A stretch of 64,000 nt of DNA, taken from NCBI GenBank assembly GCA_900708905.1, contig CAADRB010000011.1, positions 660,566 through 724,565 on the forward strand, written 5' to 3'. Shown here piece by piece: positions 4,470 through 43,599 of this stretch; within the stretch, counting starts at the first letter, position 1, and every line of letters begins with the position of its first letter. The translations under genes were made by a program, and so were the position numbers. The DNA comes from Hymenolepis diminuta (lineage: Eukaryota; Platyhelminthes; Cestoda; Cyclophyllidea; Hymenolepididae). A model generated the notes under the pieces. It was not told the DNA's origin. It did no database searches and was given only the letters and a program-made list of their open reading frames with translations.

Positions 4470-4958
4470 TAAATTATTTTCTCCATTTATTTTTAAAAGT
4501 GCTAACTCTTTGCAGGGTGTGTCATATATATTTAACAAGAGACGCAGAATGCAATGACATTATACTACTCATCGGCAAGCAGACCTTATTAACACAGAGA
4601 AAATTGTAAGCCGAAGAGTGCCCAATTAGTTCTAATGCAGTTAAATCAAACGAGTCTACTTCAGACTTTCGATTACCCATCCTTGTTGAAACATATTTCT
4701 TCAAAGTTGCATTGTGTTCGTTCTCTATAATTGTATAGTGAAATCATTTGATCAATAGAAGTGTACTCCGTCCTCTCGGTAATTGAACATCTGTTCAACA
4801 ATCTTTTGGTGTCATCGACACAACTGCATCTGACTTACACCCAGTAACATAACGCGAAAAATCAAAATGCTGTAACCTCGAGAATATGTTCCCTTAATAC
4901 TGACCAAGCTTTGATATCTTCCATTGAAAGAATGATTTTGGTAGGTTAGACCACTTGA

Positions 4959-5083
4959 TCAATCAAATACTCTTTCTTTATTCTTGTCCGGCTTAATTCC
5001 CAAAAGCAAAGGAGGACTGCAAACTCCTTGGACATGTTCATCTATTGGCAAATCCTGTACTGGCTTCTCTACAACTCTATCAC
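4959..5083 (-). CDS. Gene 1 putative terminal exon (left copy)
   Basis: After a TTTTGTGTAG acceptor (85-bp intron) a frame runs through VQDLPIDEHVQ, CSPPLLLGIKPDKNKERVFD and a TGA at 4961-4959. Phase-correct joining to the preceding exon requires an AG four codons further in (exon 4959-5071, possibly starting at 5066). Use of the first AG in the incoming phase would stop after a few codons. An AATAAA lies downstream at 4486-4491. Confidence 0.4.
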
Positions 5084-8000
5084 CTACACAAAATGACCAA
5101 AAAGTAAGTTTAATTTATAAAGCACCTCATCGTATGCAAACATGTCAATGCTAGAATATTTGAATCACCTCCGAAAGTACATGGGATGCTGGAACAGATT
5201 CAAAAAATAACTCTTTTAATAGGGACTTCCATAATCCACATTCTGCATATGCCTGATACCGTTAACTAGAATTTACTGTTGAATTTCTGAATATAAACGA
5301 AATTTTCCGAATCATTTAAAATTACTCATCCACACGTTTCCATTGTTCTGTTATCTTATTGTGAGACAGAAAGTGCTTCAGTAATTTGAGTGTGAAATCG
5401 TCTTCTCCGGAACATCCTCTTTACGAAATCAAACTGCCTTCCCTGGACGCTCCTAATCGATATAGATTACAAGTAATTTGACACTCAGGAAGCATATTAT
5501 ATTACACATCTGCAGATTTTATTCTTTTTGCAAAATTTGGATAAAGAATTCTACTTTGTCTGCATGTACATAGCAAACAACGCTGCCTATGAGATATTTG
5601 TCGAACTGGTGTGTTATCCAGTCAATTCATGAGAAATTGTCTTGGCTCAGTCTACGTGTCGCCAATCCTATTCTGTCGCCTGTTTCTGCCAGGCTCCACT
5701 ACTGCCGTCTAGAGTTTTACTTCCTTCTCCCTGGACTGAATTGTCTCGCCAAAACTGACAATTTTAGCATCATATCCCTGAAACTATTTTTCATGGTTAT
5801 GATCTGCGTGAAATAGTTCTTCAAACTACTGGATTCTCAGTTATTGTACAAGTATGTCCATGCTTCCAATCATTTCATACGGATAGAAGGTAGATCGTTA
5901 CTGCTAATTCTACCGTCTCGATATTAATAACCGAAATACGTATATCATTCACTGCGATATTTCGTAAAAAGAAGTGTCTACAGATGCTCTTTTTATTCCT
6001 CTGAGTTAAATTCATTTCCCATCGAATCTCATGAGGAAGATTTATTTTAGAGATTAAACTTGAAGCATGAAAACAATTGCTTGCTTGGATCAGTATAGTT
6101 AAAGAAAATTTTCTCTGAAATTGATTCAAGCTCATATCATACTGCCACATATAATTAGTCAGTAATTACCTTTACTAAATGTATGGACCCAGTTCTCTGT
6201 GCCATCTAAGTATTTCATCGTAAAAACCTCGTTGATCAATAATCAGTGCAGTATTAGAAAATTCTGCCCAGAATATTCACACTCTTCAGGGAGCAATACC
6301 AACGGATGGTGCAATTTAAGTGGAGCAATGGAAAGTAATATTTCTTGCACAAACGACTATGGCATAAAAAGGTAGCATTTAGCAATAATGCATCTTCTTT
6401 TCTTTCTTCTCCTTTAGTGATTGATGGCACTCCTAATTAGAGAATGTAATGAACATATTAATTTCTTTCCAATCTGTTGGTCGATAACAAATTTTCATGA
6501 CACCGTATATGATAGTTTTGCATCTAACTATTCAGTGAATAATGCAATACTTTCTAAACCAAGAATGATGACATGTGCAAGTTAATTTCAATATTTTGAC
6601 AAATAAATAGATATACTCAATCTCTTGAACTTTTCCAGATTTCTGAAATTTGAAAAATTCAAAAACAGATTGTTATATGATTTTTTGTCAATATTTATAC
6701 ATATTGGTCTGCGAATAATATGAAATATTTATTATCAACAGTCTAGACACGGTGTATCTCAATCTACTGATTGTTATTTTCTTCCGTTTTCATAGGTTCT
6801 TTGATTAAATTTCAAACACAGAAATTGTTTGCAACTAAACATAGGCCTAGACGTAAACATAGGATCCTAAGTAAAATTAAAATTGTGCAGCGATGCAATT
6901 TTAGTTCAGGGGAATTGATCTGTGTCGTCAATATTCCCTTTTATCTTTGCAGTGTGGTCTCGAGTTCTGAATGATCATATGAAATCATCCAACCCAAAAT
7001 CCAAAAATTCACAATATTAATTTTCATGAAAGTAGCAGAAATCACTGCTACCTTCACGATTTTCCCTTGTGAAAACTGTATCCTTGAGTTTTGAATTTCT
7101 CCACATCGAAATGAGTGTGTTCTTCTGTGATTACCTCTTTCCTACCATAACACCTAAATGAATTGTTTCTAGATTTAATGTTAATAAATCCACTTTATTA
7201 AATATCCCGTCATGAATACGAATCGGACCAAAAAAGGCGTCTACCTCTCTCATTTTTGCTTTCAAGATAGAGTTCAAGAATACTTGACGATTACCTTTCT
7301 AGTTACGACATTATTTTCCAGGATTTTCTTGTAATAACAGAAGGTCGTATTTATGGAAATAATTCTTTCGATTGATTGAACAGCCATGCATTCGATATAT
7401 TTGTTCAAAAGCACACATTTTTGAGCGTAAAGTACTAGAAGAGTGGTTTCATAGCTAATTTCTTCTTTACCAGCTTGTATCCAGTGGTAAAACTGTTAAG
7501 TAAACAAAGTCAAAATGGCGGTTTTATAGCGTAAGAGTGCTGAGATCTTTATGGAGAACTACGTTTTAATTATTTTGCGCATATTTACCTTTTCGTAATT
7601 GTGCATAAGATTTCCCTATAGATATGCAATAAATTAAAAACCTGTGGTACTGTAAGAAAAATTCCATGTCCTTATCCAATCACAGCTGTCGGGATTGATA
7701 GTTCCAATGGATTTTGTATCAAAGGTACTTAACAAATGAGTTGAGTGCCTTAAAAAGACTAGCAGTGAGAATTCAAGATTTTTTAAATCTGCTACACCAA
7801 TGGCCACGCATTTTGTTTTACGGAGTCTAATCGCTTAAAATACCCTTAATTTTGGAAGACGCGCCACTAGCAAGCATTCTGAATACCAGTTGAATGGCTT
7901 TGAAAATGGAGGACATGTTTGGAATAATATTTATAGACACAATTGTTTTAACCAAGATGACAAGGTCTTAAGAATTTGACTACAATCCTTCACTAATTAT

Positions 8001-11000: not shown

Positions 11001-14000
11001 AATCGATTCAATTGTTTGAAAAGCCCCCTGATGCTAATAACTTTCGCCTCGTGGACAGACACTTCTCTTCCAATTTTCAGTAATTGCATCGAAACTATTG
11101 AATACATAATAGACACACATATTTTCAATGGCAGATATTAATAAACTGACCATCGTCATTCGGATTGTTCGCATCACCAAGATATTTGATCAGCACTCTT
11201 CTTTAAGAGAAAGGTTGAATCAAAAATTGAGCTCGGGAATAACAATATCAGATTCAATATCCTAAAATATCGCTCCTCCCTAAATACGTAAGTTTAGAAC
11301 TTTCTATTTAATAAGTATCTTTTGTTAGTATTAATAGAGCAATTCCTCTGCAATGTTCTTGGATTTGCGAATACTTTCAAGAATTCTAAATGAGTGACCA
11401 GCGACATATCCGCTGTGCTTGAATTCTGATATACCCATATTCCCTTCTCGTTTCCGCTATATACGCTCTGATACATGCATTCCACTGCACTGCGTGCCTT
11501 TACCCCAAACTATTATTCAACTTATGCCACTTACAAAAATCACAAAATGCTTTTTCAAATATATGGGTCCGGATAACAGGCAAAACTACGAGGATCTCTA
11601 ATTTATCTATGTCAGTGACTCAAATGCTATCTTAATTAGTATCACTACAGCATCCTTTATTCTACCATAATCTGATTTTGATTATTTATTAATATCAGTG
11701 CAACTACTGTTCCTTTAATATCATAAACATTATGATTTTACTGAAATCGACGAGGTGACGTCATCATTTAATAGTTTCCTTCTAATATTTCATTCCAAAC
11801 TTTTGTTCTTATTGCTTTAACACTAAGTAGGGTGATTCAGCTTATTCACTAAAATAGTACTTGACAAATCAGGTTCACTGTTCACTGATTATTTGCAGAA
11901 CAGTAGTTAATAATCAGTTAAACAAAGTTGAGTCTATTATACCCACATCAATGAAAAATAACGATTCTTACCTGAAATCGGTCAACAGAAGGTCAAAAAG
12001 TGTCAAAGAGAAGCGGATTGGGAAGATGCTGGGATTAAAGTCAAAGTTTCAAGACGTCTTACTTTATTTGATTTTTAGATTCGGATTGTATAATATTTAC
12101 TTACTGGATATATCAAGTACCAAAACTCCGATTTTGCGTTTCGTTCTCTAAGTTGCTGATTGAATTCTTGTCTTTGATGTCGAATGTGATTTGCCATTTG
12201 AAATAATAGAAGGAAAAGTACATTTAAATGGTACTCAGCAATTTATACTCGTAAAAGAGCGAAACTCAGTCGAAAATTGAGCCAAAATTCTCATTGGACA
12301 AAGGAATCTAATTATGTTGGATTTAATTTTTTATGTCTTTAACTAATACTATGCTGCAAACTAACGAATTGACAATGTTGAGCATGAGAGTGATGTCATT
12401 CCTCAATCTTTGAAACGTGAAAAATTCCAATTGTGTATTTGCACCGTTTTGTCTGCAAATTATCAATACTTCCATGCAGTTGAACTGCTTCTAAGAACTC
12501 AACTAATTTACCCAAAGCCATGTCATCTTACGAAGTGAATAATCTTTCTGGGGAATAGCAACAAACACATCTTTGCTAAATCAAAATGACGACGTGTTGA
12601 TCGGAACTATGATTATCTTTGACACTAGCAAGAAATAAACGAAAGAAAGGAAGACATGAAAATATGAATTATAAATTTTAATTACAGTGAATAGTCGTAA
12701 CTCCAGAGTGAGTGGAAACTGAGTTATCATAAAGAATCCAAATAATGAAATACTGAGTCAAGTTTATCGTTTTGCGTCATTTGTTAGTCTGAAAAGCAGC
12801 CAAAAATAATCTGACAATTAGGACTGAATACATACATGGAAAACATGTGCATCCGAAGATGCAATACGCATCTTGAAATCAATTATTAAACTAAGCACCG
12901 GCCAAATCAAATAATCCCGAATAACTCAATTAAAAAGAACTAAGAAAAAAGAAACACCTAAAGTGACTGGCTTCTTAGTCCACCATAAGCATTTTCGCCA
13001 TCTACTTTCATCTTCCTTAACAAAATATAAAATTGTATATTATTTACTCTTTGAACAACAACAATTTTGATATAATTTATTATTATTAATATAATTTATT
13101 ATTCAGTGTAGCATAAGATTTCACATATTGGGAACTTTACCGCACGATCTGAGATATGTGAAGAACTTGTAAGGTCGTGTAAAATCATACCGCTTTTCTG
13201 AACTTTTGAATAAATTAAAATGAAGTGGCGACGCAGACCAGCATAATTAAACAATCAGCAATTAAGCACGGATGTTTTTTGATAAGAATTTAATCACTAA
13301 TTCAGGGGACAAATTATGAGTTTTGAATTTTGGAACGCAAAGCAGTAAACTGTTTATGAAATGAGCAATCTAGAGCACGAATCTGAAATTCACTTGATTT
13401 AACTCTTTTGATTCATCTCCTTTTTGAACTCTGCTTACCTAATTTCACTTGCAGCTTTTTTGTTTTCTATGTCCAGATGCCCTCCCAGGGTTATAAGATA
13501 ATAATTTTTTATCCTTCTATCGGCGATAATAATATTAAGAATGTAAAACATGAATAATAGATGCAGCTAGAGATTGCTAAATAACGCCGTGGTTTATTAG
13601 AGAATCAGAAACCCCAAGGATATTGCCATTCTATTTAGCTTATAAAGCTAATGCTTATTAAATGGTATTGTACTTTAAGGGTGCTGAGCACAAAAAAGGG
13701 TAAAATCAACACCATGACTATTAAAATTATTTCCCTTTTCACTTAAAGTCTTGGAATGTAACACTCAGACGGACTTAGAAATAATAAAATTAGGTTCACA
13801 ACAATGACATTATAAATATATTATGTAAAATGATATTATATTCATACAGACCAATGATAAAACCGGTTCAGTATAATAAATGTAAAAACATATAAGAATA
13901 TAATTTGAAGAACTAAAAGAATTTATTTTTCTAGAGAATGTTAGGACGTGGACATAATGAGGCCTTCATGAATAACTAATGTGCAATGTCCAAGGGATGA

Positions 14001-17000
14001 ACCATACAAGTTTACTCAAATTTACTTTTTATTGAAAGTAACTTTTATTATGAATGAAACTCGTAAACTAAATGAGTGCAAGAAATGCCAAATAATGAAA
14101 TGAATTTAATTCATAAATACCAAGATAAAGGGATCAAAGCTAACTATTAAGTAGATGCAATAAGAACTGTCAAAAGTATCATACTTGAGTTTTATTATAA
14201 GGAGAGGTAGAAGATGCCGCTGTAAGATGGAGAAAATCATTTAGTCTTCTTCAACTGTATGAAATCAGCTACCACAAATTAGGAATGCGTGGATAGCAGT
14301 GAGGCGTCAATAATCATATTTCCGTCGGTCCCTTCAACTGACAGGATTTTTGCATCCTGACTTACATTCAGGACGTAGAATATGTCCTAGAAATTCCCCT
14401 GAATTTTTATCCGTGATCGGTTAAAACTGTGTAAAACTGACTGGCTAAAAGCAAGGTAACCTGAAGGGACATATTCAGTTACCTTCAGTCTTCCGTCTCT
14501 GAGTATAATGAGGCTGAAGATTTTGTAACATTGGTTGACTGGATATGTAGTCTTCTCATGTTTTAAAGTCAGTAGCTTAATACTGGTGCATCTTAGAAGC
14601 AATGGAAAGCTCTAATCTTGTCCCTCTACAGCAGAATAAATTACAGAGAAATGAAAAGTTATTCATTGGTGACAAAAAATAGGGGTGTTAGATATAAGGA
14701 GAAACGGTTAACCGTTTTGTTCACGTATGATCGAAATTATAGGGGAAGGTTTTATTTTAATTACAAAATATTAAATCAAAGCAGATTCAACTGATTTAGT
14801 AATAACAAAATGATCCTCGGAATGTTGATGAAGGAAGTCTGCATGATTATGCCTAAAAATTATAAAATTTAATAAAGAATTTATTTGCTTATAAATCACT
14901 AGGGAGAAAGCATGACTGGAAATATAATGACTACACCATGTGGAGCTAAGGTAAACCAAAACTGAGATCCAAATTATGTCAAAGTCCCCGGGGGAATGAA
15001 ACACATATTTGCCTAAAAGGACTCTAATGGAATTTCCGTTTAAATTAAAATGTACGTTCCTTTCCTGGAATTAAAATGAATTTAAAATAAAAGAATAAGA
15101 ATAATTTGGGTTTAAAACAACCTACACTGATTTAAGCTGGCAGATATTAAATTAATACAATCGAGTCGTCTCAATGAAATATTTAATTCTGCTTAAAAAC
15201 AAAAATACCTTATTATAAATGTGTATATTTAAAGAAATACATGGGACTGCAAATGTAAAATGAGATAAACTGAGTTAAATTTATTAGTTTTAGCTTATGT
15301 CAAATGATAGCTCCTACATTCCAGGGACAGCGTATTTAAAACTTTGTTAAATTTAGACGTACCTTTTTTGTTATTCTAGAAACCTTTTGCAATTACTTAC
15401 TTTCCCTCGTAGTTGACAGCAAATTGAAAGACATACATCTCCCCGTCCACAAAACATCTTTGATAAGATTCATTTTGATCAAGCAGACTGAATAGACATC
15501 AATTTCCCACTCAACCTTCAAAATTTGGCTCTGACCAAACTCAAATAACGCAAGTAAAGTTTATCCTAAGAGAAAGGTTGAATCAAAAATTGAGCTCGGG
15601 AACAACGATATCAGATTCAATGTCTTAAAATGTTGCTCCTCCCTAAATACGTAAGTTTAAAACTTTCTGTTCAATACGTATCTTTTATTAGCATTACCAG
15701 GACAACTCTAAGAATGTACCAGTCCTAGTTATGAAAAAACATCTAAACACACAATATAGCAAATATCGCAATAAAAAGTGAAACGAGGGCCAAGAAGGAA
15801 TATATGTTAATGTCAGGAAAATGTGCCCAACCTTGTTTGAATTTGGAAAAACTAAGTTGTCCACTCCCTCACACACGAGAGAAATTCACCATGTAATGTC
15901 TAGATATTTCAAAGCTCAGTTTTCGAAGCAGTAGGTTTCTGGACGTACTCATGTCCCCCAAGTAAGAGCCTGCTAATCCAAATAAATTTCTGGTCCTCAC
16001 AATTTGATTTTATACACCTTCTTATAACCTTGTGCAGGTAGACAGGACTTGCGAAAGCGGCTTAAGCGCAACAAAACTCGTTGGATTGCCCTCATAGAGA
16101 ATTCTTATAATAACGCATATCTTTAATTAAATTCAATTAATAATAAGTAACCATAATGAATATATGTTTACTTTATATTTGCTAGTTTTGTGCCAAATGA
16201 GAGATTCTGAGTAGCGAATATGCGCAGATTTATTCCTTAGTTCCTTTTTCAATTATTTGTAAATCGGAGATTTACTGAGACTTTCGATACATCTAAATCT
16301 TCTTTATATGTTTGTCGGTCTTGTAACGTTGCAACAAGTTTTACTGTTCCACTTTTTCACCACACATCTTTCTTAAAGGAATTTGAATTCATTCCAATGT
16401 TGGAGCGGAAAAAGCATCAAAGCAGACATTTTCCGCCTAACATTTTGCGATTAAATCAATTTACACACCAACTGTAGAGGTAAATTTTGAACAAGCACTT
16501 TTTTTCTAAATTAAAATTTATTTGTGTTTATGTACATGTTATTTCATAAATATTTTATTGAAATTGGATGGAGCATGATATCAGCAATACAATTGATAGA
16601 TTAGCAATTAAATAACAACTTTGAGTGACCTTGGTCCAATCTCCCTTAAATTTTATTTCAATTCACCGACTGATTTTCTTCAGTAATTTACCTCCTCAAT
16701 ATTGTTACAAGTTCACAAAATTAAAACATCAACTCGAGTATACATACTCTTGTATAAAAAAATAAATATTTAAGTAAGAGGTGATTCAATTTTTATGACT
16801 AGTGTTTCGTTGACAATTTTAAAAAAAGATTCCTTTTATTGTACGATGTTTTACGTCGAAAGTACACAAATCATCATACGGATGCCTATCCGACAATATA
16901 TATTTTTAAAATATAACCCGTACTTATTGCTTAAAATCATCTTTGATTTGTTTTTGATTAGTTAGAAAATGGTTTATCTATTGATCTATATTAGGGTAAA

Positions 17001-22757: not shown

Positions 22758-22768
22758 ATAAATTCCTT

Positions 22769-25621: not shown

Positions 25622-26182
25622 NNNNNNNNNNNNNNNNNNNNNNNNNNNNNNNNNNNNNNNNNNNNNNNNNNNNNNNNNNNNNNNNNNNNNNNNNNNNNNN
25701 NNNNNNNNNNNNNNNNNNNNNNNNNNNNNNNNNNNNNNNNNNNNNNNNNNNNNNNNNNNNNNNNNNNNNNNNNNNNNNNNNNNNNNNNNNNNNNNNNNNN
25801 NNNNNNNNNNNNNNNNNNNNNNNNNNNNNNNNNNNNNNNNNNNNNNNNNNNNNNNNNNNNNNNNNNNNNNNNNNNNNNNNNNNNNNNNNNNNNNNNNNNN
25901 NNNNNNNNNNNNNNNNNNNNNNNNNNNNNNNNNNNNNNNNNNNNNNNNNNNNNNNNNNNNNNNNNNNNNNNNNNNNNNNNNNNNNNNNNNNNNNNNNNNN
26001 NNNNNNNNNNNNNNNNNNNNNNNNNNNNNNNNNNNNNNNNNNNNNNNNNNNNNNNNNNNNNNNNNNNNNNNNNNNNNNNNNNNNNNNNNNNNNNNNNNNN
26101 NNNNNNNNNNNNNNNNNNNNNNNNNNNNNNNNNNNNNNNNNNNNNNNNNNNNNNNNNNNNNNNNNNNNNNNNNNNNNNNNNN
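25622..26182. other. Assembly gap (561 N)
   Basis: A run of N separates the two paralogs' 5' sides. The first coding exon and promoter of gene 2 may be hidden here. Open frames crossing the N run are artefacts. Confidence 0.95.
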
Positions 26183-26325
26183 GTAATGAATTTTTCCGAC
26201 GACCATTCATTTTTAAGTAGCTGTATTAGATAAGGTCAATTTATGAAACTCAGTAAAATGGAGAATTTTGAAGCGATACACAATACATTTGTTGATCGTT
26301 TTTTTTGTTTTCTTTTCTAAATTAG

Positions 26326-26442
26326 GACTAAGAATGTGTCCTATAAAGGCTCCCTCCCTTTATGATCTGTCTGTTAGAACAATATATAAAAATGACCCTC
26401 AAGCAAAGTTCCTTTATGCATATATTTTATACTCTATAAGAC
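26326..26442 (+). CDS. Gene 2 exon
   Basis: An excellent acceptor (a long T tract, TTTTCTAAATTAG) opens a coding segment in phase 1 including CPIKAPSLYDLSVRTIYK and NDPQAKFLYAYILYSIR. It ends near AGAC/GTGTGC in phase 1. SVRTIYKNDP parallels LEMQYPNDP in the gene 1 exon at 21632-21704. It starts 143 bp after the N run. Confidence 0.55.
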
Positions 26443-29400
26443 GTGTGCAATTGCTCTTTGTTCTTTTAACTTTCTGTATGTTGGGCTTGACGACTTAACA
26501 ATGACTGGGCTCTTACTCATTCCTGTTCATTTCTGTGAGCATTTCAGATAGCAATAGATAGCTCTAATCGTGCGCCGCAACAAAATATTGGTAAAATGTT
26601 TCCAATATTATTTGTTTACTTAAACAAATTTTACAAACGTCATTGCTGACAAACTTCTTCATCGATTATTGGTCTTCCTAGTACATTCCTGGAGTGGAAA
26701 CTTGTCAATGCGCATTTGTCAGTTGATCATTATTAACATAACTCAAGCTATAAAATGCCGTTTATCCTCTTGTATCATTTTTTTGGTTACAATAGTTTTT
26801 ATTTCCTGGTTTTAACAACTCTAGCTCTTGTACCACCTCGATACGCAACAAATATCATTGAGATATATCATCTAGAGATATATAGGGAAAACAGAACTGC
26901 GGGCAAAATTGTGGGACTGAATATAGAATTTTTGTTGCCACAATTTACCGACAGAAAACTAAATGGGGAAATCCTTTGTTCTTGTTGGATAGAAGAACAT
27001 GATAACTATGTGAAAAGGAAATACCTTTCCCAAAATACACCGAAATTACTAAAATACGTGATGGCTGTTCTTAAATTATTATCTTGAAACATTCCATTCG
27101 TCCATAAAAGATTTTACTATTTATGAAAATTCAACACGAATAAGATGTAAAAGGTATTTAAACTAACCCAAGATTCAATATAGGTTAATCAAAGTTCGCG
27201 CAATTTCAAAATTTATAATGTATTTGATTTATGAATTTCACTTAAGTATTTGTTTTATTGCAAGAAATTGGCTTTTAAATTTCGGCGAATTAAAAAATGT
27301 CCGTTTATTAATGAATATAGCATGCAATATAATAATCTGACATGTGGAGAGGAGAAATAGTTTTGGCAAAGGGTAGGGATATTTATTATGTGGTTTCGAG
27401 ACAATTATTTCTTCCCTTCTCAACAATAATAATATAAGCCAATGTCTTCCAAGCGATCTTTTGAAGAGCTCGCACTGAATTCGATGTCAACCTTAAGGAT
27501 GCTATTCTGAAATGTGACGTTTTAATCCTTCTTGTCTTTTATGAGACTTAAAATGATCCCTGAAAGTCTCCTTTGATAGTAAAGTCAGAGAACCAGAGAT
27601 TTTATCAATTGTGCAATACCATTGCTTTGGTTTCGGTAAGCATTCGCATATAGCTGGTAGCTTGGGACTTCATCGTTTCCGTTCGATTTCTCCTATGATG
27701 GGAATTCAAGGTATTGAGGAGAGAAAGCGACGCCGTTGACTGTTTTCTTTAAATTTATGTATTTAACTGCTTAATAATCTAAAGCCATCTTGTCCCTCTG
27801 TTTCCGAAATAGTACTGGCTAAGATTGCAAACTTAGTGGATATTTTACGTCTCCCTACTAATCCATTCATAAAACTGACAATGAAACTAATTGCATCCTT
27901 TGCAATAATAAATGAATGCAAGACGAGAAAGAAATCAATGAACAAGTATTTAATAACCCGGATATCTGGCCTAGAGTTGTTTGAAAGTTTTGCTGAATTG
28001 GTAGCAAGAGGGTGGCATAGCTTTTACTGTCTGAATAAATTTAATTTAAATTTGATGTAGCACGGGCCAGTAGAGTAATGAGTATAGAAAAACAAACAAC
28101 CATTAATTTATACTGAGGCAGGAAGAGAGATGTTGAAGATGGAAGAGAAGGGAACAGTATCAAAACGTAACGTGAAAGCCACACCTTGAGTAGAAAAAGT
28201 AGGCAGATGAGTATGTTAGTACAACAAAATAGAAAACCTAATATAGAAACATGAGGAATTAAAAACAATAATTTTTCATAAATGCCTAATATAAACAAAG
28301 ACATTAAACAATTTATTTTATTCCGTTTTACCGAACTACTAAAATATGAACATAAAGATCAGCACTTAGATATAGGAATAGATTCAGAAAATTGTTCCGT
28401 CACTAATCCCTAAAATGATCAATAAATTACCAAAAGCTTTATTGTTCAATTCCTCACATTGTTATAAAGTAAAATAATCTTACAAAATGTGTGCCTTTTT
28501 GTTGGAATTTTATAATTACAACTCATGAAAATGCGAAAAAAGTGAGCGATTTATAGATCAGTCGTTGAATCAGCTTTAACCTCTTTGTTTAACTTTGTTA
28601 GCACAAAACATACTAGTGGCGAAAATGTATTTTGTAATTAGGGGCCACCATTGTTCCCTTAAAACACCATTGACGAATTTCGAGATGAGCAAGATGAATC
28701 CCAAAATACCAAGTTATAGGAAAATTTTTTACGTTTTAATAATTTTAAAATGAGCAGCGTATACGAAAGTTTAGTTAGTTCATTATACAATATAAAAGTT
28801 GAGCTTCATTGGATAAAATGGTAAGACACAGAAAAAGAAATTTTAATATTGTCAAAGGAAAATATTTAACGTTTATTCTTTATTATATTTTCTTCTAGGC
28901 ATTTCCATTTTTAAGCTGCATCCTCGTCTTCGGGTTTGTTTGTAGTTCACCGGCTGGTTCAGCGTCCCTTCCAGACGCCTTATTTTTTCCAAGAATTATT
29001 CGGAATCAATGATGCATGTTTGGTTTGCTTCTTCCTATTTATTAATTTCATCGAAGATTTTCCGTCAAGTCTTGGATGAGTGGCCGTCCAGAACTTCTCA
29101 TATATAGATTTTTCTTCTAATCCTTGGATCAAAATATTGCGTTCATTATTGTTTTGAAGGAAGATCTCCATTCTCAGTCTTCTCAATAGCATTCACTCTT
29201 GTTTTGCATAGAATCATTTATATCTTCGATGTAGTGGTATTTATATTTACTATAACAATAAGTTTATAAAAATTTTAGACCAAGCGTGGGAAAGAATCAG
29301 TATTCCAGCATCAAAAGAGTGACAAATAGAATCGATGAGATTGCTGTGCCCTGTCTGAACTTTAGTTTGCAGAAATTATGGGTAGCTGATTTCTCAGAAA

Positions 29401-32400
29401 TGAATATAATCCAACCAACACCAACCAAAAGTAGAGATACTCAGTTGCCTACCTGAATTATAGCTTTGATGAGCGTGTCGTAGATGAAGATTAAGCTACT
29501 CTATGTGTTACGGTTAGGGTCATAATTTGAACACCATAAAAAGCAATATAAAGCTCTACTCGCACACTATGGCAACATCTTAAACAGCTTCTACTAGCTC
29601 TTCTGTCGACAATCTCAAGCTATTCAGTCCAAATACTGAAGATTTTAATTTTTCGAAATATGTGGGACAATTTCTAAAGTCCAGACTTTAAAAGATGATT
29701 TCATGATGCAGAGAATCATACCCGCTTATTAACAATAAAAATTCCGATTTCAGATTGATACTCATTTTATGCCCTCAATCACTAACTTCTTTGGAATCAT
29801 TTCATAAAACTCTGTTTATAAACGTTAATCCGTGATTAGAATTACTTACCGAAAGTAATTAAAATTTTTTCAGTAAGGTGATGAATTTATTTCCACTTTG
29901 TTAAATTTCAATGAGAAAAGGAAAGTGCTTTCAGTACAGTCAGTGGAAATGTCTGTTCAAGAGCGACATTACTCTTGCAAGAAGTTCAAAATTTTTGAAA
30001 CCGGTTATCCATGAAAAATTTCGGAATCAAATTCTTTAGGTTGTCATAGAAACATGACTTATCATTTTGCGATCTTGAAAAATATTAGCTTCGACTTCCG
30101 CGAAAATTTGCTAATCACTTTTAATATAGTCAATTATATTTCACGTACTCAAATTACATGCCTTCATATATGATTCAATATGCTTCAAATACTATCATAA
30201 GTCATAAAATGGAAGTAAATGCTTTTTTATTTCGAAGACGTTTTTTCGGTGGATTTGCTTGAGGACTATTCCGGCTTAATAGGTTATACTTAAGCTACAT
30301 TCATTATTACCCCATGGAAAGGCGAATAAATTGCAATATTTATACAAATGAATTGTTCAAATTTGAGGCGCTGTAGAACAATTTAAATAAACGGTATAGA
30401 AGGGAAAAGGATAAAGGAAAAAATGGTTTAAGGAATTAAAATAACTACACCTATCTTAAAGTTATAACGTTCATCATCCTTTTCTTAAGAGGTAAGATAT
30501 GACATTTCAAATGACATATTCACCCCCAAGAGTGCTTTTAAAGAAGAACAATTACTACACTGTTGTAATAATAAGAAGTCTAGTTTCTGTCACTAAGATC
30601 CATGTTCCTACTAGATATGTCCTGACTACAGTTGACTCAGACACGTGGAGAAATAGGACAGAATTTCCTTTACTGAAATACGACTACTAAATCTGCAAAA
30701 ACTATATATGAATACAAGTCATGTTTTTTTAAAACTGATATCAAAAATCAGGACTGAGAAGTGTTTCTGCTTTAACTGTCGAGCTGTCAGGAGCGGCGTG
30801 AGCCAACATATTAATAAGGGCGATGAGTGATTTATTAATCACCTGAGGGAATTGCTCATTCCACAACACAACAACGATGCTGCTTTTATGCTGACTATCT
30901 ATCATGTCCTAACTAGAATATTTGCGTCCTCGGATTCAAGAGATTGTCATTTGCTAAGGATTTCCTTTCCGTAATGTCCTGAGAAGCAAGTTGTTTAACA
31001 TGGTAGAATGGTCATGGCTACGCGGTACATTTAAAAGCTCAAAAACAGCTAGCTAACACAGTCTGAGATGTCAATACTTTAGATATGAAACTACTTTATT
31101 TCCTTCACCATGGCATAATTCGAAGAGCTCAGCAAAGGTATGTTCCAATACCACCTTATAAACTTCGTGGGTATCTATGTGTCCTAATTCTTAAAACTAT
31201 ATTCTCTTCCGAAATAACCTGAGGTCCACCCCGAAAGACATCTGCATCGGGGGATAATTAAACCCCCAGCTGCCTTAGTAACTTGTCAAAGGATAACAAA
31301 TGATAAATAAGGCTTTCCTAATATTTAAATCCCTGAAGTTCCATTGCGGGCACAAATAGTATTCGCGTTTTTAGTTTCATAATAGAAAGTTGCCATTTCA
31401 AAAGAATCCGCCTTTTCAACTGAAACAGTGGGAAACAAAAGGCCTTAAAATGAATGAAACCGATATTTTGTAATTTGCTTTTATGGTTTCTTCATTGTTT
31501 GAATGGTCTCCAAAGGATGTCAATGGCTGGTCATTCAAGTAAATATAAAGTGCTAAAGTTAGGATATGAAAATGCATTTCTAGGCAAATGAATTATTATC
31601 AGTTGGGAAAAATAATCCACAAAGGCAAAGCCACTTCTTACTAAAAATTTTTAAGCATATTTTTATACAAATGCAAAATATTTTGTCATTTCTGTCATGG
31701 TATTTTTAATTTCCATCAAAAAACACAAAAATGAGTTCAATATAATGCAATTTTAGGAGGAAATCGGATACTGAAGATATTTAGATGAGAAGTATATTAT
31801 TTGCAAACGAAACTAATATCCAGTCTAAACTAAAATAAATGATTAAAAATCAACGAAAAATGTCTGGGTCGTCCTCCATCTGAGCTGAATAATAAAAATA
31901 GGAAATTTTTAGCTCTACTAGTCGTTGCTCTTCTCCTCCTTCCCTAAATTAGAGACTTTAAAACTATGCTTCCGCTTGTCCTACTTGTGAAGTGCAAGCT
32001 AACTTTTTAAATAAACAGGAAATTATTATTTCGTCTTTAAACGGCATTTCAAATTTGAAGTTTGTAAAGATTTTAAAATATTTAGAAACTCAGCGTTAAT
32101 TAGCGTCCTTAAATATCAAATATTTGAAGAGCATACAAAAAGTAATGATCTTCCGGTGAAACTTATTCAGTTTGGTTTACTTTTTCCAGCCCTTGTTCAA
32201 AACCTAAATTTTACGAAATGAAACAGCTTCATGTTGGCAGATTTGGCTTATTGAAGTGTTCTTTTCTTAGTTGAAATTCTTTTCTTTCAACAGGGGAATA
32301 AAGACAGTTAAGCATAAACAATTTTAGATAATATTAAATTCAGAAAAGTGATGTTACGAATGTTACGAAAACAATGTTTTATTAACAAGTACTAACAATT

Positions 32401-35400
32401 GAGAACTGTCAGTTCTGCGGTTATCAGAAAGACTAAGATGCCGTAACCAAACCTCTTATTTAATTTATTCGTCAACCAACTCAAGATATTGCGCACAAGA
32501 CTCCTTACTCATGATATCCGAGCTATCAGTGTCAGGCCAAATGGTAAACACCATTTGAGACACATCGAACGAAGTATAATTAGCTTCTGCCTATCGTCAA
32601 GTGCGTCTAATTTGTCTACCTAATCAGTTGTGGTTGACACAACGTAATACGCTGTGCCCTAGAAAAATCGTGGTTTATCAGGGGTCTTCCGAATATTCTG
32701 TGCGTAATTTCCAATAGGTTAGAGGAATAAATAAATTATATTCTGGAGTCCGAACTTTAGACTAATAGGTCGTGTTAAAATGAATTGCATCTGTCAAGTG
32801 AAAACATGGACTACCTAATGAACCAAAATTGAGATAAAATATATGGAATTACGCATCGACTATCATCCTATATCTGCTTCCCCCACACTCCCTCACTCAA
32901 AATCTCCTTTAACCTTCTTCCGTTTCTAAAATTTTGATGATCTCCCATGATTGAGAACTAATAATTTTGCTTCGAAACGTTGAATAAATTAGAAAGTAGA
33001 AAATGAGTAAAATAATAAGACTCAAGATGGAACGCTTACATTTTGCAAATTTTTTGGAAGCTTCTATACAAAATCTGCTTTATAAGGTAACTATCCTCGA
33101 TAGGGAAAGATATAAGTAATTAAAAATGATTGCTTACATTGTAGATCATAACACATCTCTTGAAAATTCTAAGAGATTTATTTTATCCTCCTTTCTACAT
33201 CTCTATCTCCAATATGTTTTCATTAATCGACCACATTCGTCCATGCACCACCGCTTTACCATTGGAAAATAAATAAAAGTATTTGTGTTTCGTCGTGTTT
33301 GCTGATATTTAATATATTGTTAATGAATGTGGGAACGTCCGTGGCCTCTTAGACCGCTTTTCTGTAGAGATGTTGGTGCTGGGTAACCTAGCCTATATTT
33401 ACTACTCTGACTATGGCCAGTACTTCGAGCAACAACTAAGGCATTGGAATGAGAATAACCTTGCTCAAGGCCTTAAATCATAGTTAGAAGAAGAATTCCT
33501 AGTCAACAGGGAGATGAACGGGTGCAGATGAGTGGCGGATTTATGGTCTGTTTGTTAACAAGGATAGCGTACAATGTACAAATTGGACAAGCAGATGCAT
33601 AGCCGAGCAGAGGGGAAATAGTTTTTGAAAAGAGTAGGGAGATTTGATCCACAGGAATCGGAAAAATTACTTCTTTTTTCTCGGTCCAAAGAATCGATGT
33701 TGCTTTCTCAAACGACCTTTTGAGGAGATTCGCACTAAACCCGATATCAAAATTAATGATTTCAATCGTTTTAACCATCCTTGTCCTTCACATAACTTAA
33801 AACAGCAACAAATTTGAAACCGGAAATTTCTGTTGATTATTGCTCCCTAAGAACAATGATTCCGTCGATGGTGCTTTCTTTTCCGTAAACATATGCATAC
33901 GTTGGCAACGTTGCATTTTACTGTTTTCGTTTGGTTTCCCCTAAGACGGAGGTTTTTGGTATTTTGCACTGGATTTCACATTGTTGATTATTTTATTCAT
34001 AGCAGCCCAGTCAAACCGGAGGCTCCACTGGCATCTTGATGAATTTGCTTTAGTTCTGACTTTGTGCAAGTTCCCTCTTTAACTCGCCTTGGTATCTGAT
34101 GGCACAAAAGAGGCTCTTGGAGAAGGAACTTGAGAAGATTTTCTTTAGCAATTCAAAGAAGAAGTCTTCTTTATTAAAGCTTGGCCGTGAGATCTCCCAG
34201 AGGAATCCGCTGAACTAACTCATCGCCTGTCATGACTCAGAGAGAGTAATTCTAAGATCCACCTTCTCACAGTATTAAGAATAGCTTTAAGCCAGTTTTT
34301 ATCAGATACCCTAAGTACTATTGTGAAAAGGTGGTAGTAGAGATTTGTTTCCACAATGATCTAGATAAGCCTTACTTTCACTAATAACTAAGGGCTTTTA
34401 AATTACATCAGAACATTACAATTTGTTGTTTGGAGTAATAGATGCTGCGGGTTACAACTTCACTGACTGGTCCCCTGCATTAATTTGCCATCCTAGATAT
34501 GTAAAGGAGTTCAACTTCTGAATTAAGTTTTGAATAGAGCATAAATGTTGTTTATTTGTAGAAATCGATAAGTCACAGAATGGGAGAACGGCAGAAAGTG
34601 TTGCAGCTTCCAGAGAAGTAAATGTAAAAGTGATTTCATAGATCACATAAGCAAATTAAATTGCAAATTTCGATTTTTCAGTCAAAATAATAACTTCTCT
34701 GTAAATAGAAAAAAGTTCGCTGAATGCAACAATAGGAAACTGGACCTTCAAACGCGAAAAGTATATGCTGTATATATCATCTCAAAAATCACTTACTGAT
34801 TTCCTTATGCCTTCAGCAATAAATATAAATAAAAAAATAGAGCATTAAAATCGATTTCAGAAAAATCACCTCCATTTCATTCATATCATGGAAGTTATCA
34901 GAACCAGAAAGTTTTCACTTAGAAAGAGAATCCTCCCTTAAACGGAAACAATGGGAAATGAATGACCCAAGAATTCCATAAAGCTAGTATTTATATCTTC
35001 CTTTGTTTAAAATCGCCTCATAAGAGCCCAAGATCTGTCTAAAAGTGAGAAAATTATAAGACAAAAAAATGCATTGATAAACATTTTAAGTAAATTATTT
35101 TTATATGGGATAAGCTAATTTAAGATTACTTTCGCTGCCAGAAATTTACATGGAAATCATTTGCATGTGTCGTGGAGATCTAAACGGTATTATTTATTAT
35201 TAGGAAGAGCTTGGGGGGCCTTTTCACTAGCAAGTACATAATTTTTAACAGAAACTGTTCCTGAAGAAATTGAATTTAGGTCATATTTGAAAATTTCAAT
35301 AAGCTTTTATGGTCAACAGTTCTGTTGAATGAAATAAGTGTTTCAGCATTGAAGGGTGTCGAGAATTCAATTTATTTTAAATGATCTTCTTAAAACCTTC

Positions 35401-38400
35401 GGCTGGCGACGGGAAAAATTGTATGCGCTCTATAAAATTATTAAATAAAAATTAAATGTACTTTCAGATCTTAATTAGAGTTAATTTGCCTGATTGCCTG
35501 AAAGTTATAATTCTTTGGAGAGAGACTTGTTATTATTGGCCTCTCAATGATATCATTAATATCACAATAATACAAAAGATATTAGCAGTTTTTAATTTTG
35601 GGAAGCAACTGAAAGCGGGTAGCAGAAATTCTAGTAGATGATAAGGGCGAGGCGATCAAAAAGATTCTGAAAGTAATCTCAAAGCCTCAAAGGGTCTTAC
35701 TTCATTATATTTTTGAGTTTGGGTTTTAAAAAATTGTATAAAGGACACCTGCATGACAAAATTCAAATTTCATAATTCGTACCCTGATTGTAGCGAATTT
35801 TCGTCTAAGATGTCCAATGCTTATTAACCGGTTGTTTTAATCCAAAAGGACCACTTCTGTAGCCTGAAACCATCTTTTTATTGTAATAGTCAAGATGGCA
35901 GAATCGCTTTCTTTGGGTCAGGACACGTAGGATGCAAGAAGTGAAAAAAGTTACCAGTTAGCGGAATACGGGTTGGTTCAAAGTATTAGTTGGTCTGTTG
36001 TTTATTAAGCACTTTTATTTCCTAATAGCTCGAAAATGGGGGATTGGAACTAGTGTCTTTTAAAAAACCTTCATCCTTATTAGAGAGGCTGTATTTAACA
36101 CAGCCTCTCTAGTTATTATCGCTCCTGATTACCACATAAAGTTCAATAAAATGCGGATTGGGAGGACCCCCTATTAAATGTATACATTTCTATGGACGAA
36201 ATCTTATGTTCTTGTTTGTTATTCTCATATTCAATAAACATGTATGAAATTCAGTCATTCGTTGTTTTGCTCTATTTCATATTATTTTCCTACCCCAGTG
36301 TTACGATTATTCAAGGATTTTGTGGGCCAGTTTTTGAATACTGGTTTAGTCTTTGTGTTTTGAAGAGTATCACCACTTAAACACTTAATCATTCAGGATG
36401 AATAAACTAGGGTCTTTCAGCATTTATCAACTGAATTCACTGGCCTAATAAGAGAAGGGTTGGTTTGCATAAATTTGCACCAATTAGAGATATCTGTAGT
36501 ATACTACTCATGAAAGGTGCAGATATGAGGTCGTATCATCTTAATTAAGGATTGTGCATCACATAATGCATCATGAACGTGTACTTTGTACTAGCGTTAG
36601 TAAATAGAGTTCAGGTAAATGCTCAAGGTGCAAAACTTGTTTGAGCAAATGGATATTTGTTCATCAACATGTTTCTGTATTGAACTCGAGTGAGTTCTAC
36701 TTTGTTTAGAATTTTATTATACTTGTGATTCAGAGAACGTTCAGCTGAATCAATGTGACATGACCAGGCATTCATTAAATCAACCAGATTACAATCTCTG
36801 AATATCTTGAACATGTGATCATCCAAAAACCTAGAATACCAATCATGAAAATTGGTCTTTAAATTATTCAAAAATACAACGAGAATTGTACATCTTGTGA
36901 GGAAGTTGATAGCTCAGTATTTTCAGAATTCAAAAAAGAATGATTGCTGATGCTAACTTCATTTTACTTATTATCGACCATCATCTTACGTTTTCAGGTG
37001 TCATTTCAGGATTAAAACGTCCAACATTTTTAGCATTGTCATGGACAATGGGACTAAAAGATTTTGAATGTTTATATCAGAAATCGAAGGTTCTATTGCA
37101 TTTGTCTCTAATTTTTCCTAACTTATGATAAACCGTAATCAGTATTTCACACTTTTATAACCGATAAAATTATTGACCATATAGTTTGAAAAAGTGATTA
37201 AATAAATCGATTTTTACAGGATTCGATTATTAAAAAAGTTTCAATTAAGTTCGTAGATTCTGTTTAACGAGACCTTGATAAGAGTATGTTCAGCCATTTC
37301 GTGAGTTTATTTAGTTACAGTATTTTGCCAAACAAATTAAATATCCTTTGATAAATTAAAAACTTAAATAACTCCATGCTATTTTAGTATTTTTAGAGAG
37401 AAATTTTTGCTTTATTTAAAATTCAATAGTATTTTATTGCAGAAAATTCAATCTAATCTGCTGATTGACATTAAAAAATACTTCTACCTTCATTGTAATG
37501 TTAACTGAAATAAAGAATCATTATTTATAAACTTAGAAAAATATTTTCTTTTTAATGCGGAACGGAAAACTTACGGCTAACATAACCGTCAAAAAATGTT
37601 TAGGTACTTTTTCTGTTCGGCACGTTTCTTCTTGTATTTTGCAATATTCACTATTAATCATGCAGTTTGATTAATCATTATATAAATATAGTTTATCCAG
37701 AAATATTCACAAAAGAATACTTATTAATTTTTGTATAGTCCAGGTACCGAATTCCTTTACTCTAGGGAGAAATTCCAAAATATTATTTGCTCGTGTGTGA
37801 CTGACTACAAAACGTTAAAATGGACTATCTTGGTCAACGTCATCCATATGGATGACTCAGTAGATGAGATTCTCGTTTTTGAGTATAAGGAACAGTTTCC
37901 TATCTCTATAGCTGTCATTCAAGGGTCATCATTATTCGACATATTATTATTGATATAAACAAGTCCTACATAACTCTCTCCATTCATAAGCACATGAAAG
38001 CGTGCAGAGGATATTGGATAGTTCAAAGACTGGGCAAGACCTCTCAAATCTTAATAATGAAAAAATATTAATTTTTCCATCATTAATTATTAATGATTAA
38101 TAAATAATATTAATAAAATAATAATAAATAAATTTTAATAATTCCATTATATCCAGATAATTAAGACTGCTTGATATCTTGCAAGATCATTCCGAATTAT
38201 CAAACGTGGAAGAACAAAGTAAATTGAAATGCTATTTAAATATGCGGTTAAAGGAAAAACCCGGTCTATGTTATTTGAAATATATTGGCTAAGTATATTC
38301 AATCAATACTGCTTTAGGAAAAATGTTAATAATATTAACTGCTTCGCGATTAAATAAAAAAAGGAATGCAGTGGTATTTGGGGAAAAAAATTAATTTTCG

Positions 38401-39447
38401 AGAAGATTGAAGTAATAGGATTTGTATGTGGAGCTTATAAGCTATTTAGTAGCACTCTTCTTAAGTAGGCATTACAGTGTATTTAATCAGTCTTAGATTT
38501 TTCCGAAATGACGGTAATTCCTTGCAAATTGGAAAATATAATTACTAAGTTGCCTTGTACAATAACTGAGAATCCAGTAGTTTGAAGAACTATTTCACGC
38601 AGATCATAACCATGAAAAATAGTTTCAGGGATATGATGCTAAAATTGTCAGTTTTGGCGAGACAATTCAGTCCAGGGAGAAGGAAGTAAAACTCTAGACG
38701 GCAGTAGTGGAGCCTGGCAGAAACAGGCGACAGAATAGGATTGGCGACACGTAGACTGAGCCAAGACAATTTCTCATGAATTGACTGGATAACACACCAG
38801 TTCGACAAATATCTCATAGGCAGCGTTGTTTGCTATGTACATGCAGACAAAGTAGAATTCTTTATCCAAATTTTGCAAAAAGAATAAAATCTGCAGATGT
38901 GTAATATAATATGCTTCCTGAGTGTCAAATTACTTGTAATCTATATCGATTAGGAGCGTCCAGGGAAGGCAGTTTGATTTCGTAAAGAGGATGTTCCGGA
39001 GAAGACGATTTCACACTCAAATTACTGAAGCACTTTCTGTCTCACAATAAGATAACAGAACAATGGAAACGTGTGGATGAGTAATTTTAAATGATTCGGA
39101 AAATTTCGTTTATATTCAGAAATTCAACAGTAAATTCTAGTTAACGGTATCAGGCATATGCAGAATGTGGATTATGGAAGTCCCTATTAAAAGAGTTATT
39201 TTTTGAATCTGTTCCAGCATCCCATGTACTTTCGGAGGTGATTCAAATATTCTAGCATTGACATGTTTGCATACGATGAGGTGCTTTATAAATTAAACTT
39301 ACTTTTTGGTCATTTTGTGTAGGTGATAGAGTTGTAGAGAAGCCAGTACAGGATTTGCCAATAGATGAACATGTCCAAGGAGTTTGCAGTCCTCCTTTGC
39401 TTTTGGGAATTAAGCCGGACAAGAATAAAGAAAGAGTATTTGATTGA
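26326..39447 (+). CDS. Gene 2: multi-exon paralog of gene 1, incomplete model
   Basis: This plus-strand entry joins exon-like segments at 26326-26442, 26825-27057, 27837-28000, possibly 30499-30690, 36998-37089, 37739-37958, 38629-38685, 39154-39237 and 39323(or 39340)-39447. Several resemble gene 1 exons in the same order (YxNDP, NGEIL with KRKYL, NKYLIT, and W with ISIAVI). The last three are identical to gene 1. Middle exons were not found, and the 5' end may be in the assembly gap at 25622-26182. Not all phases join, so the gene may be real but incompletely traced, or partly decayed. Confidence 0.4.
26825..27057 (+). CDS. Gene 2 exon
   Basis: A coding segment after acceptor GTTTTAACAACTCTAG, entering in phase 1 as required by the exon before it. 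It is open for about 77 codons including YATNIIEIYHLEIYRENRT, LPQFTDRKLNGEILCSCWIE and NYVKRKYLSQNTPK. The 3' edge is uncertain: TAC/GTGATG at 27057 leaves phase 0, while the next exon wants phase 1. The frame as a whole is open from 26755 to 27087 (110 codons), so a stand-alone ORF is possible but less likely. Confidence 0.55.
27240..27730. repeat. Family C diverged repeat, copy 1
   Basis: This aligns, interrupted by indels, with 33500-33970. Shared stretches are GAGGAGAAATAGTTTT..AAAGGGTAGGGAT, GATCTTTTGAAGAGCTCGCACT and CGTTTTAATCCTTCTTGTC. On the minus strand both copies keep similar peptides (IFINKRTFFNSP against ILVNKQTINPP), so a decayed coding element is likely. Confidence 0.55.
27837..28000 (+). 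CDS. Gene 2 exon
   Basis: A 164-nt segment between acceptor TTGCAAACTTAG and donor GAATTG/GTAGCA, phase 1 in and phase 0 out. It contains LPTNPFIKLTMKLIASFA and KSMNKYLITRISGLELFES. The NKYLIT stretch parallels the gene 1 exon at 13439-13516. Confidence 0.5.
28818..29012 (+). CDS. Candidate two-exon small secreted peptide
   Basis: An ATG at 28818-28820 is followed at once by a GTAAGA donor. After a 78-bp intron with an excellent acceptor (ATTATATTTTCTTCTAG) the frame gives 38 residues and stops at 29010-29012. The N-terminus is a good signal peptide (MAFPFLSCILVFGFVCSS), then a short tail ending FFPRIIRNQ. The arrangement recalls small secreted micro-exon gene products of flatworms. Against this, the minus strand over the same DNA is also partly open (28980-29192). 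Confidence 0.3.
28980..29192 (-). other. Open frame, coding-like, unidentified
   Basis: A 70-codon frame on the minus strand contains IYEKFWTATHPRLDGKSS and KLINRKKQTKHASL. A shift at its end continues into LEKIRRLEGTLNQPVN near 28960. It could be a decayed mobile-element piece. It overlaps the second exon of the candidate secreted peptide, and both cannot easily be real. Confidence 0.2.
30499..30690 (+). CDS. Candidate coding segment in the gene 2 interval
   Basis: An open frame of 63 codons after a pyrimidine-rich stretch with CTTTTCTTAAG. It includes VTKIHVPTRYVLTTVDSD and TWRNRTEFPLLKYDY and then a stop. It looks more coding than neighbouring frames, but has no recognised relation to gene 1 and no clear donor. 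Confidence 0.25.
   Translation: MTFQMTYSPPRVLLKKNNYYTVVIIRSLVSVTKIHVPTRYVLTTVDSDTWRNRTEFPLLKYDY
33500..34650 (-). mobile_element. Degenerate LINE fragment with reverse-transcriptase motif
   Basis: On the minus strand, 34646-34452 is open and ends IQKLNSFTYLGWQINAG, which fits the FxYLGxxI motif near the end of the RT domain of non-LTR elements (RTE or related clades). Downstream, to about 33500, is a GC-richer tract including the family C sequence. No complete ORF remains. The fragment lies inside the gene 2 interval. Confidence 0.5.
35520..35880 (+). repeat. Family A dispersed repeat
   Basis: This copy has GCGATCAAAAAGATTCTGAA, AAAGGGTCTTACTTCATTA and TTCAAATTTCATAATTCGTA, and is one of the clearest copies. 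It lies in the gene 2 interval. Confidence 0.75.
36081..36111. other. Perfect 12-bp hairpin
   Basis: TAGAGAGGCTGT, a 7-nt loop (ATTTAAC) and ACAGCCTCTCTA form a perfect stem. It is isolated in the gene 2 interval, with no run of T after it. It could be a tiny palindromic element or a structured RNA segment. Confidence 0.7.
36623..36871 (-). other. Open frame, coding-like, unidentified
   Basis: An 82-codon frame on the minus strand lies opposite to gene 2. It includes NFHDWYSRFLDDHMFKIF, NLVDLMNAWSCHIDSAE and KVELTRVQYRNML. Its composition is more protein-like than neighbouring frames, and an AATTTAAAG acceptor-like site precedes the coding-looking part. It may be an exon or a transposon remnant. 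No domain is recognised. Confidence 0.3.
36998..37089 (+). CDS. Gene 2 exon
   Basis: After a strong acceptor (TCTTACGTTTTCAG) the segment reads VISGLKRPTFLALSWTMG then LKDFECLYQKSK, phase 1 in and phase 0 out at AAG/GTTCTA. The donor is weak and the frame remains open 13 further codons. No family is recognised. Confidence 0.5.
37739..37958 (+). CDS. Gene 2 exon, beta-rich segment
   Basis: The acceptor TTAATTTTTGTATAG opens a phase-2 frame that runs to a TAA at 37956-37958. It includes PGTEFLYSREKFQNIICS, TLKWTILVNVIHMDDSVDE and FPISIAVIQGSSLF. The spacing from KW to ISIAVI matches RW to IRISVI in the gene 1 exon 5881-6083. No good donor precedes the stop, except GCT/GTCATT in phase 0. The segment may be truncated by that donor, or the gene may be broken here. 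Confidence 0.5.
38040..38145. repeat. AT-only low-complexity tract with palindromes
   Basis: Runs of TTAATTATTAATGATTAATAA and (TAA)n form several overlapping self-complementary stretches between the gene 2 exon at 37739 and the duplicated block. Confidence 0.75.
38629..38685 (+). CDS. Gene 2 exon inside the duplicated block (right copy)
   Basis: The sequence is identical to 5777-5721, with the same splice sites and a 19-codon phase-0 exon. Whether it is spliced to the exons upstream on this strand is not shown by the sequence. Confidence 0.5.
39154..39237 (+). CDS. Gene 2 exon inside the duplicated block (right copy)
   Basis: The sequence is identical to 5252-5169 (28 codons, helical, phase 0 at both ends). 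The 85-bp intron after it ends at TTTTGTGTAG. Confidence 0.5.
39323..39447 (+). CDS. Gene 2 putative terminal exon (right copy)
   Basis: The sequence is identical to 5083-4959, ending in TGA at 39445-39447 with AATAAA at 39915-39920. The start is ambiguous between the first AG (39323) and the phase-correct AG (39340), as in the left copy. Confidence 0.35.
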
Positions 39448-41019
39448 TCAAGTGGTCTAACCTACCAAAATCATTCTTTCAATGGAAGATATCAAAGCTT
39501 GGTCAGTATTAAGGGAACATATTCTCGAGGTTACAGCATTTTGATTTTTCGCGTTATGTTACTGGGTGTAAGTCAGATGCAGTTGTGTCGATGACACCAA
39601 AAGATTGTTGAACAGATGTTCAATTACCGAGAGGACGGAGTACACTTCTATTGATCAAATGATTTCACTATACAATTATAGAGAACGAACACAATGCAAC
39701 TTTGAAGAAATATGTTTCAACAAGGATGGGTAATCGAAAGTCTGAAGTAGACTCGTTTGATTTAACTGCATTAGAACTAATTGGGCACTCTTCGGCTTAC
39801 AATTTTCTCTGTGTTAATAAGGTCTGCTTGCCGATGAGTAGTATAATGTCATTGCATTCTGCGTCTCTTGTTAAATATATATGACACACCCTGCAAAGAG
39901 TTAGCACTTTTAAAAATAAATGGAGAAAATAATTTAAAATGTCTCACACATTTTTTAGACTTTCGGGCTCGCCAGTACATCTCGAGGGAGAAAATTGAGA
40001 TAAATGTTGTATGAAAATTTGTATGTTTTGGAAAAGATTTCAGCACTGAATGTAATAAATTTTGCAGAAAAATCTGGGTTTTTGTACGGACTTATGACCC
40101 TTAAGGCTTGGCCAACTTATCTTCTTATCATTAAATAAATTCTTAATCTTTTAGTATGCCAATACAGATTTTTCCAACCAAAACTGCAAGGATTCAGAAG
40201 CAACTGAATAAATTGCGTGGTGATAATTGTGACATTTTCCTTATATACTCTCAAAGATGTAATGTTAATTCAGATATATTGCGTATTTCTAACATATTGC
40301 TATCAAACAATTTTAGACCGGTTTTTAAATAGATTTGTTTCAAATAGTGTGATTAAAATTGGTAGGTTTTCACTATTCTATTTGTTCATTCTAACATCCT
40401 TCTCATATATGAATGTGAATTCAACTACCCCAATCATTTCGGGCGCAGGACAAAGTAACGACTATTTGTCAGTCAATCAACACATTGAGTTATATTTTAT
40501 CTTGTTTCAATAAAGTGCGATAGTTCTTCAGGAATTGTTAAATTTAATTTTTCTGTAAGAAGGTTGACTTATTTCTTGTCATTGTCTAAGAGATTATAGT
40601 TTAATGCATTATTACATTTAACTAATCTTCCATTAATGAGTCAAATGTTATTTTCCTGATTATTGCACATCTTTATATTTAATGCTATAGTAAAAATATT
40701 TTCCGATATAGAGAACAAAATATGATATTAAGAACTCACGTAGATTTTATTCTTGATTCTAAAATCTAAAAACTTCCCTCTTTACAGAAGACAACGAATC
40801 TCCCTCATCTGCGTATCAGGAATTTCAGTTTTAAATAATTCTGAAAAACATTCAGTTTACAAATATTCAACAGGAAAATATTTTCTTACTATCAAAACGG
40901 AATGAGCTGAGACAATGTTTTGTTCTCTTTTATTTGACTTGCCTATGGAGATGAGAGCAACTTAACTGCTTATTACCATCAATTAGATATCGGATGGCAC
41001 TGTATATTTATATCTGTAT

Positions 41020-41260: not shown

Positions 41261-41399
41261 TTACTTAGCATTGGGGGGATGTTAAATTATGATAATCGGT
41301 CTTCCACTGAAATCCATATTTTCTTACAAACCTTGGGAAGGCAGATTCGAGTTGGATGATATTCAGCGGCTTGCATAATCTCAACATAGCAGGGCTGTG

Positions 41400-43505: not shown

Positions 43506-43599
43506 GACCTGCATTCCTCACTCTCACACAAATTTTGGTTGCCTTTTTGCAATTAAATTTGATCTAATCCTAATTCCTGGAATTTTTATCTGGAAACTG

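Follow-up and report, generated by a model that had tools for sequence, protein, structure and literature searches.

Two stretches of 1383 bp that lie about 33 kb apart in the Hymenolepis diminuta assembly, inverted relative to each other, are identical base for base, and we interpret them, with middling confidence, as a tract of ectopic gene conversion within an old inverted duplication. The two blocks were analysed within a window of 64,000 nucleotides, by which we mean the whole stretch of DNA under study. In favour of gene conversion are the exact identity over the full 1383 bp, the sharp edges, the recovery of only two copies from the assembly, and homology beyond the outer edges that scores far above shuffled sequence. 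Against it, the identity drops into diverged homology on one side only, and the inner edge is without detectable homology.

Two blocks of 1383 bp are identical in inverted orientation

The left block (4470-5852, plus strand) was compared directly with the reverse complement of the right, inverted block (38554-39936, minus strand). All 1383 of 1383 bases were equal and there were no indels, just as the original prediction had claimed. The block edges are exact, with a mismatch at the very next base past each end of the match. Given the base composition, a chance match is ruled out (log10 of the expected number about -760). Across the whole window the blocks are the sole source of exact inverted 40-mer pairs, and no 40-mer is repeated in direct orientation. 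When the 170.6 Mb assembly was searched with the block, two copies were recovered and the number was the same at E values up to 10, where "two copies" is to be read as two recognisable copies, because DNA searches of this genome miss old relatives, as seen from the failure of the left outer flank query to recover the right outer flank. The same search of the assembly placed the block in no repeat family.

Two recent copies of a mobile element would also be exact, and we considered this explanation. It appears extremely improbable, given that only two copies were found in the assembly, that no terminal inverted repeat or flanking duplication was seen by eye at the printed block ends, that the block is without coding signal (see below) and that the outer flanks of the two copies are homologous. 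Within the block itself, inverted repeats of at least 14 bp were absent.

The outer flanks are diverged homologues in register with the blocks

Outside the outer edges, that is left of 4470 and right of 39936, the exact match gives way to homology of 68-71% identity that continues in register with the block. Adjoining the block, the left outer flank at 4173-4469 (plus strand) is related to 39937-40215 (minus strand). Alignment of 4173-4456 with 40215-39950 yielded 176 identical positions among 258 ungapped columns and a score of 43.2, compared with 14.0 +/- 2.0 and a maximum of 23.1 in 200 dinucleotide shuffles; the longest exact run was 8 bp. Further out, a second homologous stretch at 3748-4160 (plus strand) pairs with 40581-40957 (minus strand), and the alignment of 3748-4160 with 40957-40581 contained 258 identical positions in 362 ungapped columns, scored 62.8 (shuffle maximum 30.7) and had a longest exact run of 11 bp, so that no exact run in the aligned outer flanks exceeds 11 bp. 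Between the two aligned stretches, the right flank carries 365 bp of its own (40216-40580), where the equivalent place on the left holds 12 bp. The earlier expectation that diverged homology continues outside the 3' edge is thus confirmed on the outer side, with scores well above those of shuffles. In the one genome compared, identity of 68-71% in the adjoining outer homology suggests that the duplication is old.

The local alignment extends outward into a dispersed repeat (3505-4160 against 41207-40581, 421/591). This repeat is about 300 bp long and has many copies across the genome that are roughly 65-80% alike. One copy sits where the left outer homology ends on the side away from the block (3290-3676; matches in 28 other places, and profile matches as well) and another at the corresponding end on the right (41036-41270, query positions 1100-1334), and genome searches identified further copies in the window at 11950-12204, 24968-25280, 35556-35838, 43583-43893 and 45233-45482. 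When the four flanks were used as genome queries, each returned itself at 100% and otherwise only short matches of 65-88% identity, mostly dispersed repeats; for three of the four, 40 candidates were scored, out of 50, 731 and 142, respectively. At the loci that were fetched, matches of the outer-flank profile elsewhere were confined to its repeat part, reaching up to profile position 413 of 1516, and hence the homology that adjoins the block is not simply the dispersed repeat. The window also holds a 130-bp sequence that occurs twice in direct orientation, with 91% identity (11204-11333 and 15567-15696).

The inner flanks look unrelated

The blocks enclose a spacer of 32.7 kb (5853-38553), the two ends of which are not detectably related to each other. 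Past the inner edges, right of 5852 and left of 38554, no DNA homology was detectable, as alignment scores stayed below the shuffle maximum at all lengths tried. At 100-500 bp the scores were within 1 standard deviation of the shuffle mean, and with 1 kb and 2 kb compared they climbed to z = 1.8 and z = 2.6, respectively, still below the shuffle maximum. In translated comparison, the 12 matches listed outside the block all involved the dispersed-repeat stretches 3450-3681 or 11994-12156. A lenient DNA comparison matched two places within the spacer at 63% (15773-15978 and 36994-36787), and the spacer piece 26183-35500 returned only itself from a search of its own genome.

These data divide the original prediction between the two sides of the block. 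It had looked for a drop from identity into diverged homology at both edges, and had read nested identity as the mark of conversion or very recent exchange as opposed to an old duplication. The outer side fits this reading; on the inner side, no drop into diverged homology was seen. It had also held that unrelated flanks would favour a segmental insertion, which agrees with how the inner flanks look and is at odds with outer flanks that are homologous in register. With its identity nested in old in-register homology, the outer side is not accounted for by a simple recent duplication or by a blunt segmental insertion.

The unrelated inner flanks are better accounted for by one-sided copying than by conversion. 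Here, break-induced or template-switch synthesis would have made one of the blocks a new insertion beside an old paralogous flank: a broken end would have used the other locus as template for 1383 bp of synthesis before being joined to unrelated DNA, leaving an exact and apparently recent copy. However, the outer junction is in register, and the exact runs there, of at most 11 bp, are too short for ordinary strand invasion, which needs longer exact homology. A join through microhomology, on the other hand, would have no reason to land in register, and on balance we regard one-sided copying as rather unlikely. A staggered-break inversion of the 32.7 kb would fit both the inverted orientation and the unrelated inner flanks, given that such an inversion duplicates the break segment, in inverted orientation, at both breakpoints, and the block would then be that segment. 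This event, which we consider very improbable, would not lead one to expect outer flanks that are homologous and in register with the block.

Assembly as a possible source of exact identity

The absence of differences over 1383 bp bounds the divergence of the two blocks only if the assembly has not collapsed the copies. According to the published description of the H. diminuta WMS-il1 assembly (PMC6890685; Illumina reads under project accession ERP113437), ABySS and dnaasm were run on Illumina paired-end and mate-pair reads, and LINKS and dnaasm-link made the links from nanopore reads; heterozygosity is put at less than 0.05%. The assembly that we examined very likely consists of such Illumina de Bruijn contigs joined by long reads, and the zero differences could therefore be, in part, one consensus written twice, in which case the real copies may be less than 100% identical. 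ABySS pops bubbles and fills paths, and both steps would yield exact copies of this sort. In its mild form, such an effect would hide some differing sites between two real copies; in its strong form, there would be one real copy.

Exact duplicates are indeed found elsewhere in this assembly. A stretch of at least 3763 bp that contains a kinase gene is present in three exact copies, one on C20 and two on C106 (1087067-1090829 and, inverted, 1104665-1108427). Both C106 copies terminate at an N run or at a single N, the latter being what dnaasm-link puts between overlapping contigs (PMC6487145). Because both copies end at Ns, the triplicate is probably one contig that was used more than once, and it served as our positive control for contig reuse. 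On C200 (336,654 bp), segments of 3780 and 4500 bp each have an exact mirror copy at the same distance from the opposite scaffold end. The kinase matches on this scaffold and the sequence around them are exact mirror images, which makes much of C200 look folded back on itself. Finally, C133 (53869 bp) has the same 3194 bp, exact and inverted, close to each of its ends in mirror positions, and C59 repeats the sequence exactly near its own end. The symmetric matches had led us to expect C133 to be a full palindrome, an idea that was rejected when the central 2001 bp proved not to be palindromic, leaving the arms only. Whatever the origin of the block, any count of recent gene duplications in this genome should be preceded by a check of the exact duplicates on C106, C20, C200, C133 and C59.

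The blocks resemble the reused contigs of C106/C20, C200 and C133/C59 in being exact copies, several of which are inverted as well. Unlike the C106 copies, which end at Ns, the blocks have no N at any of their four edges, which lie well inside contigs: the nearest N is 12,372-21,152 bp away, none of the four edges lies within 12 kb of one, and the spacer has a scaffold gap of 561 N at 25622-26182. In addition, a misjoin would not be expected to give outer flanks that are, as here, anciently related and in register. For these reasons, contig reuse is unlikely as the source of the blocks. Sparse differences are also not always lost from this assembly, as an 851-bp inverted repeat on C106 (positions 1-851 and 2698-3548 of C106:1097501-1101268) retains 2 mismatches. 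Taking the evidence on both sides together, we think it unlikely that a single collapsed consensus for the block was written out twice. If this is nevertheless what happened, the locus shows that short-read assembly can create exact duplicates. As a side observation, the 851-bp inverted repeat flanks a kinase gene within a cluster of related kinase genes.

Proposed gene conversion within an old inverted duplication

Under gene conversion, the two loci would be old inverted paralogues, as the old in-register homology outside one edge suggests. The inner 1.4 kb would have been rewritten from one copy onto the other, either recently or repeatedly to judge by its identity, while the outer kilobase of the duplication decayed to about 70% identity. 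The inner block edge would correspond to the end of the old duplication, where pairing and copying would stop, and the outer block edge to the place where divergence was high enough to halt branch migration. Since the outer flanks offer no exact run of more than 11 bp, pairing would have had to start inside the block, between blocks that were already alike before the last event. This favours repeated conversion since the duplication, in which the tract probably never diverged far, over a single conversion of a pair that was 70% identical. The reading is built on one genome and assumes that diverged homologues of the block formerly existed at both loci; a conversion event of this sort would be of an ordinary kind and would need no function for the block.

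Base composition is a weak argument in the same direction. The GC content of the block is 36.7%, compared with 27.8-32.2% in the four adjacent flanks of 1383 bp, which is the direction expected of GC-biased conversion, and the argument is weak because, of the 462 overlapping tiles taken from the rest of the window, 14 have a GC content at least as high as that of the block. More speculatively, the block may be a gene-less island of 1.4 kb that conversion has held identical to its inverted partner ever since the old duplication, shrinking over time and perhaps kept for inverted pairing, with the rest of the duplication decayed to about 70% identity or beyond recognition. We put this forward as a tentative idea that is probably wrong.

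Relation to known conversion-maintained inverted repeats

Inverted repeats with near-identical arms have been described in Caenorhabditis, where the arms remain alike across species splits even as orthologues drift apart (Zhao et al. 2007, PMC1803023). The same paper discusses whether the arms are actively maintained and names gene conversion as a candidate mechanism. Like these repeats, the H. diminuta blocks are inverted paralogous stretches in which arm identity is as high as 100% and the surrounding sequence is less conserved (PMC1803023). The Caenorhabditis repeats lie between paralogous gene pairs, have spacers of 126-414 bp in some of the examples given and are shown in related species (PMC1803023), whereas the H. 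diminuta block is without a detected gene, has a spacer of 32.7 kb and was examined in one genome. A second parallel is provided by the palindromes of primate sex chromosomes, the arms of which are reported to be kept alike by arm-to-arm conversion (PMC3723533, PMC8981503). Here too the inverted arms are very similar, in H. diminuta at 1383 of 1383 positions as assembled; the primate arms are described as far larger and sex-linked, and their conversion as shown by variants and species comparison. Within cestodes, signs of ongoing conversion have been reported among TRIM elements (PMC4558846). Among the papers listed for gene conversion in Hymenolepis or Platyhelminthes, none was on this locus, judged by title or the start of the abstract. 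If real, the block is a smaller, apparently gene-less and widely spaced member of the known class of conversion-kept inverted repeats. It would then provide a clean conversion tract in a flatworm, and its identical arms could also flip the intervening 32.7 kb.

Gene content of the blocks and the window

According to the original prediction, the blocks carry the 3' ends, introns included, of two divergent genes. This was not borne out, as the block gave no exon-like signal and the ORF pieces searched gave no protein homologue. For the minus strand, 12 of 18 ORF pieces (496 aa) were searched against 3563 candidates, and for the plus strand 10 of 22 pieces (517 aa) against 4826 candidates; no homologue was found at E values up to 1 on either strand among the eligible proteins, which were limited to 0.55-1.75 times the lengths of the ORF pieces. 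We also scanned the block with codon log-odds scores. The training set consisted of 20 kinase stretches (13,722 bp) from this genome, which were what remained of 30 loci after leaving out 7 that were too short and 3 exact duplicates. The best score in the block was 8.6, a value reached by 92 of 500 shuffled blocks (shuffle 95% point 10.0), while a Kelch gene in the window scored 86.0. A coding block was rejected on these grounds, the score being within the shuffle range and the ORF pieces searched having no protein match, and the block looks non-coding by sequence criteria. For held-out kinase pieces, the fraction that reached a score of 10 was 0.73 at 80 codons and 0.12 at 40 codons; for Kelch pieces it was 0.57 and 0.07, respectively. 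Exons of less than about 80 codons are thus often missed by the scan, and short exons in the block could escape it.

Rfam models gave no match in the window at gathering scores and none in 4100-6100 at E values up to 1, and no tRNA was found in the window. The Kelch-like (KLHL10-like) gene has a single exon at 55664-57574 on the minus strand and spans 636 codons from stop to stop. Residues 20-330 of its product are 96% identical to a Hymenolepis weldensis protein, and proteins of other relatives match it at 86% (Rodentolepis nana) and 85% (H. microstoma).
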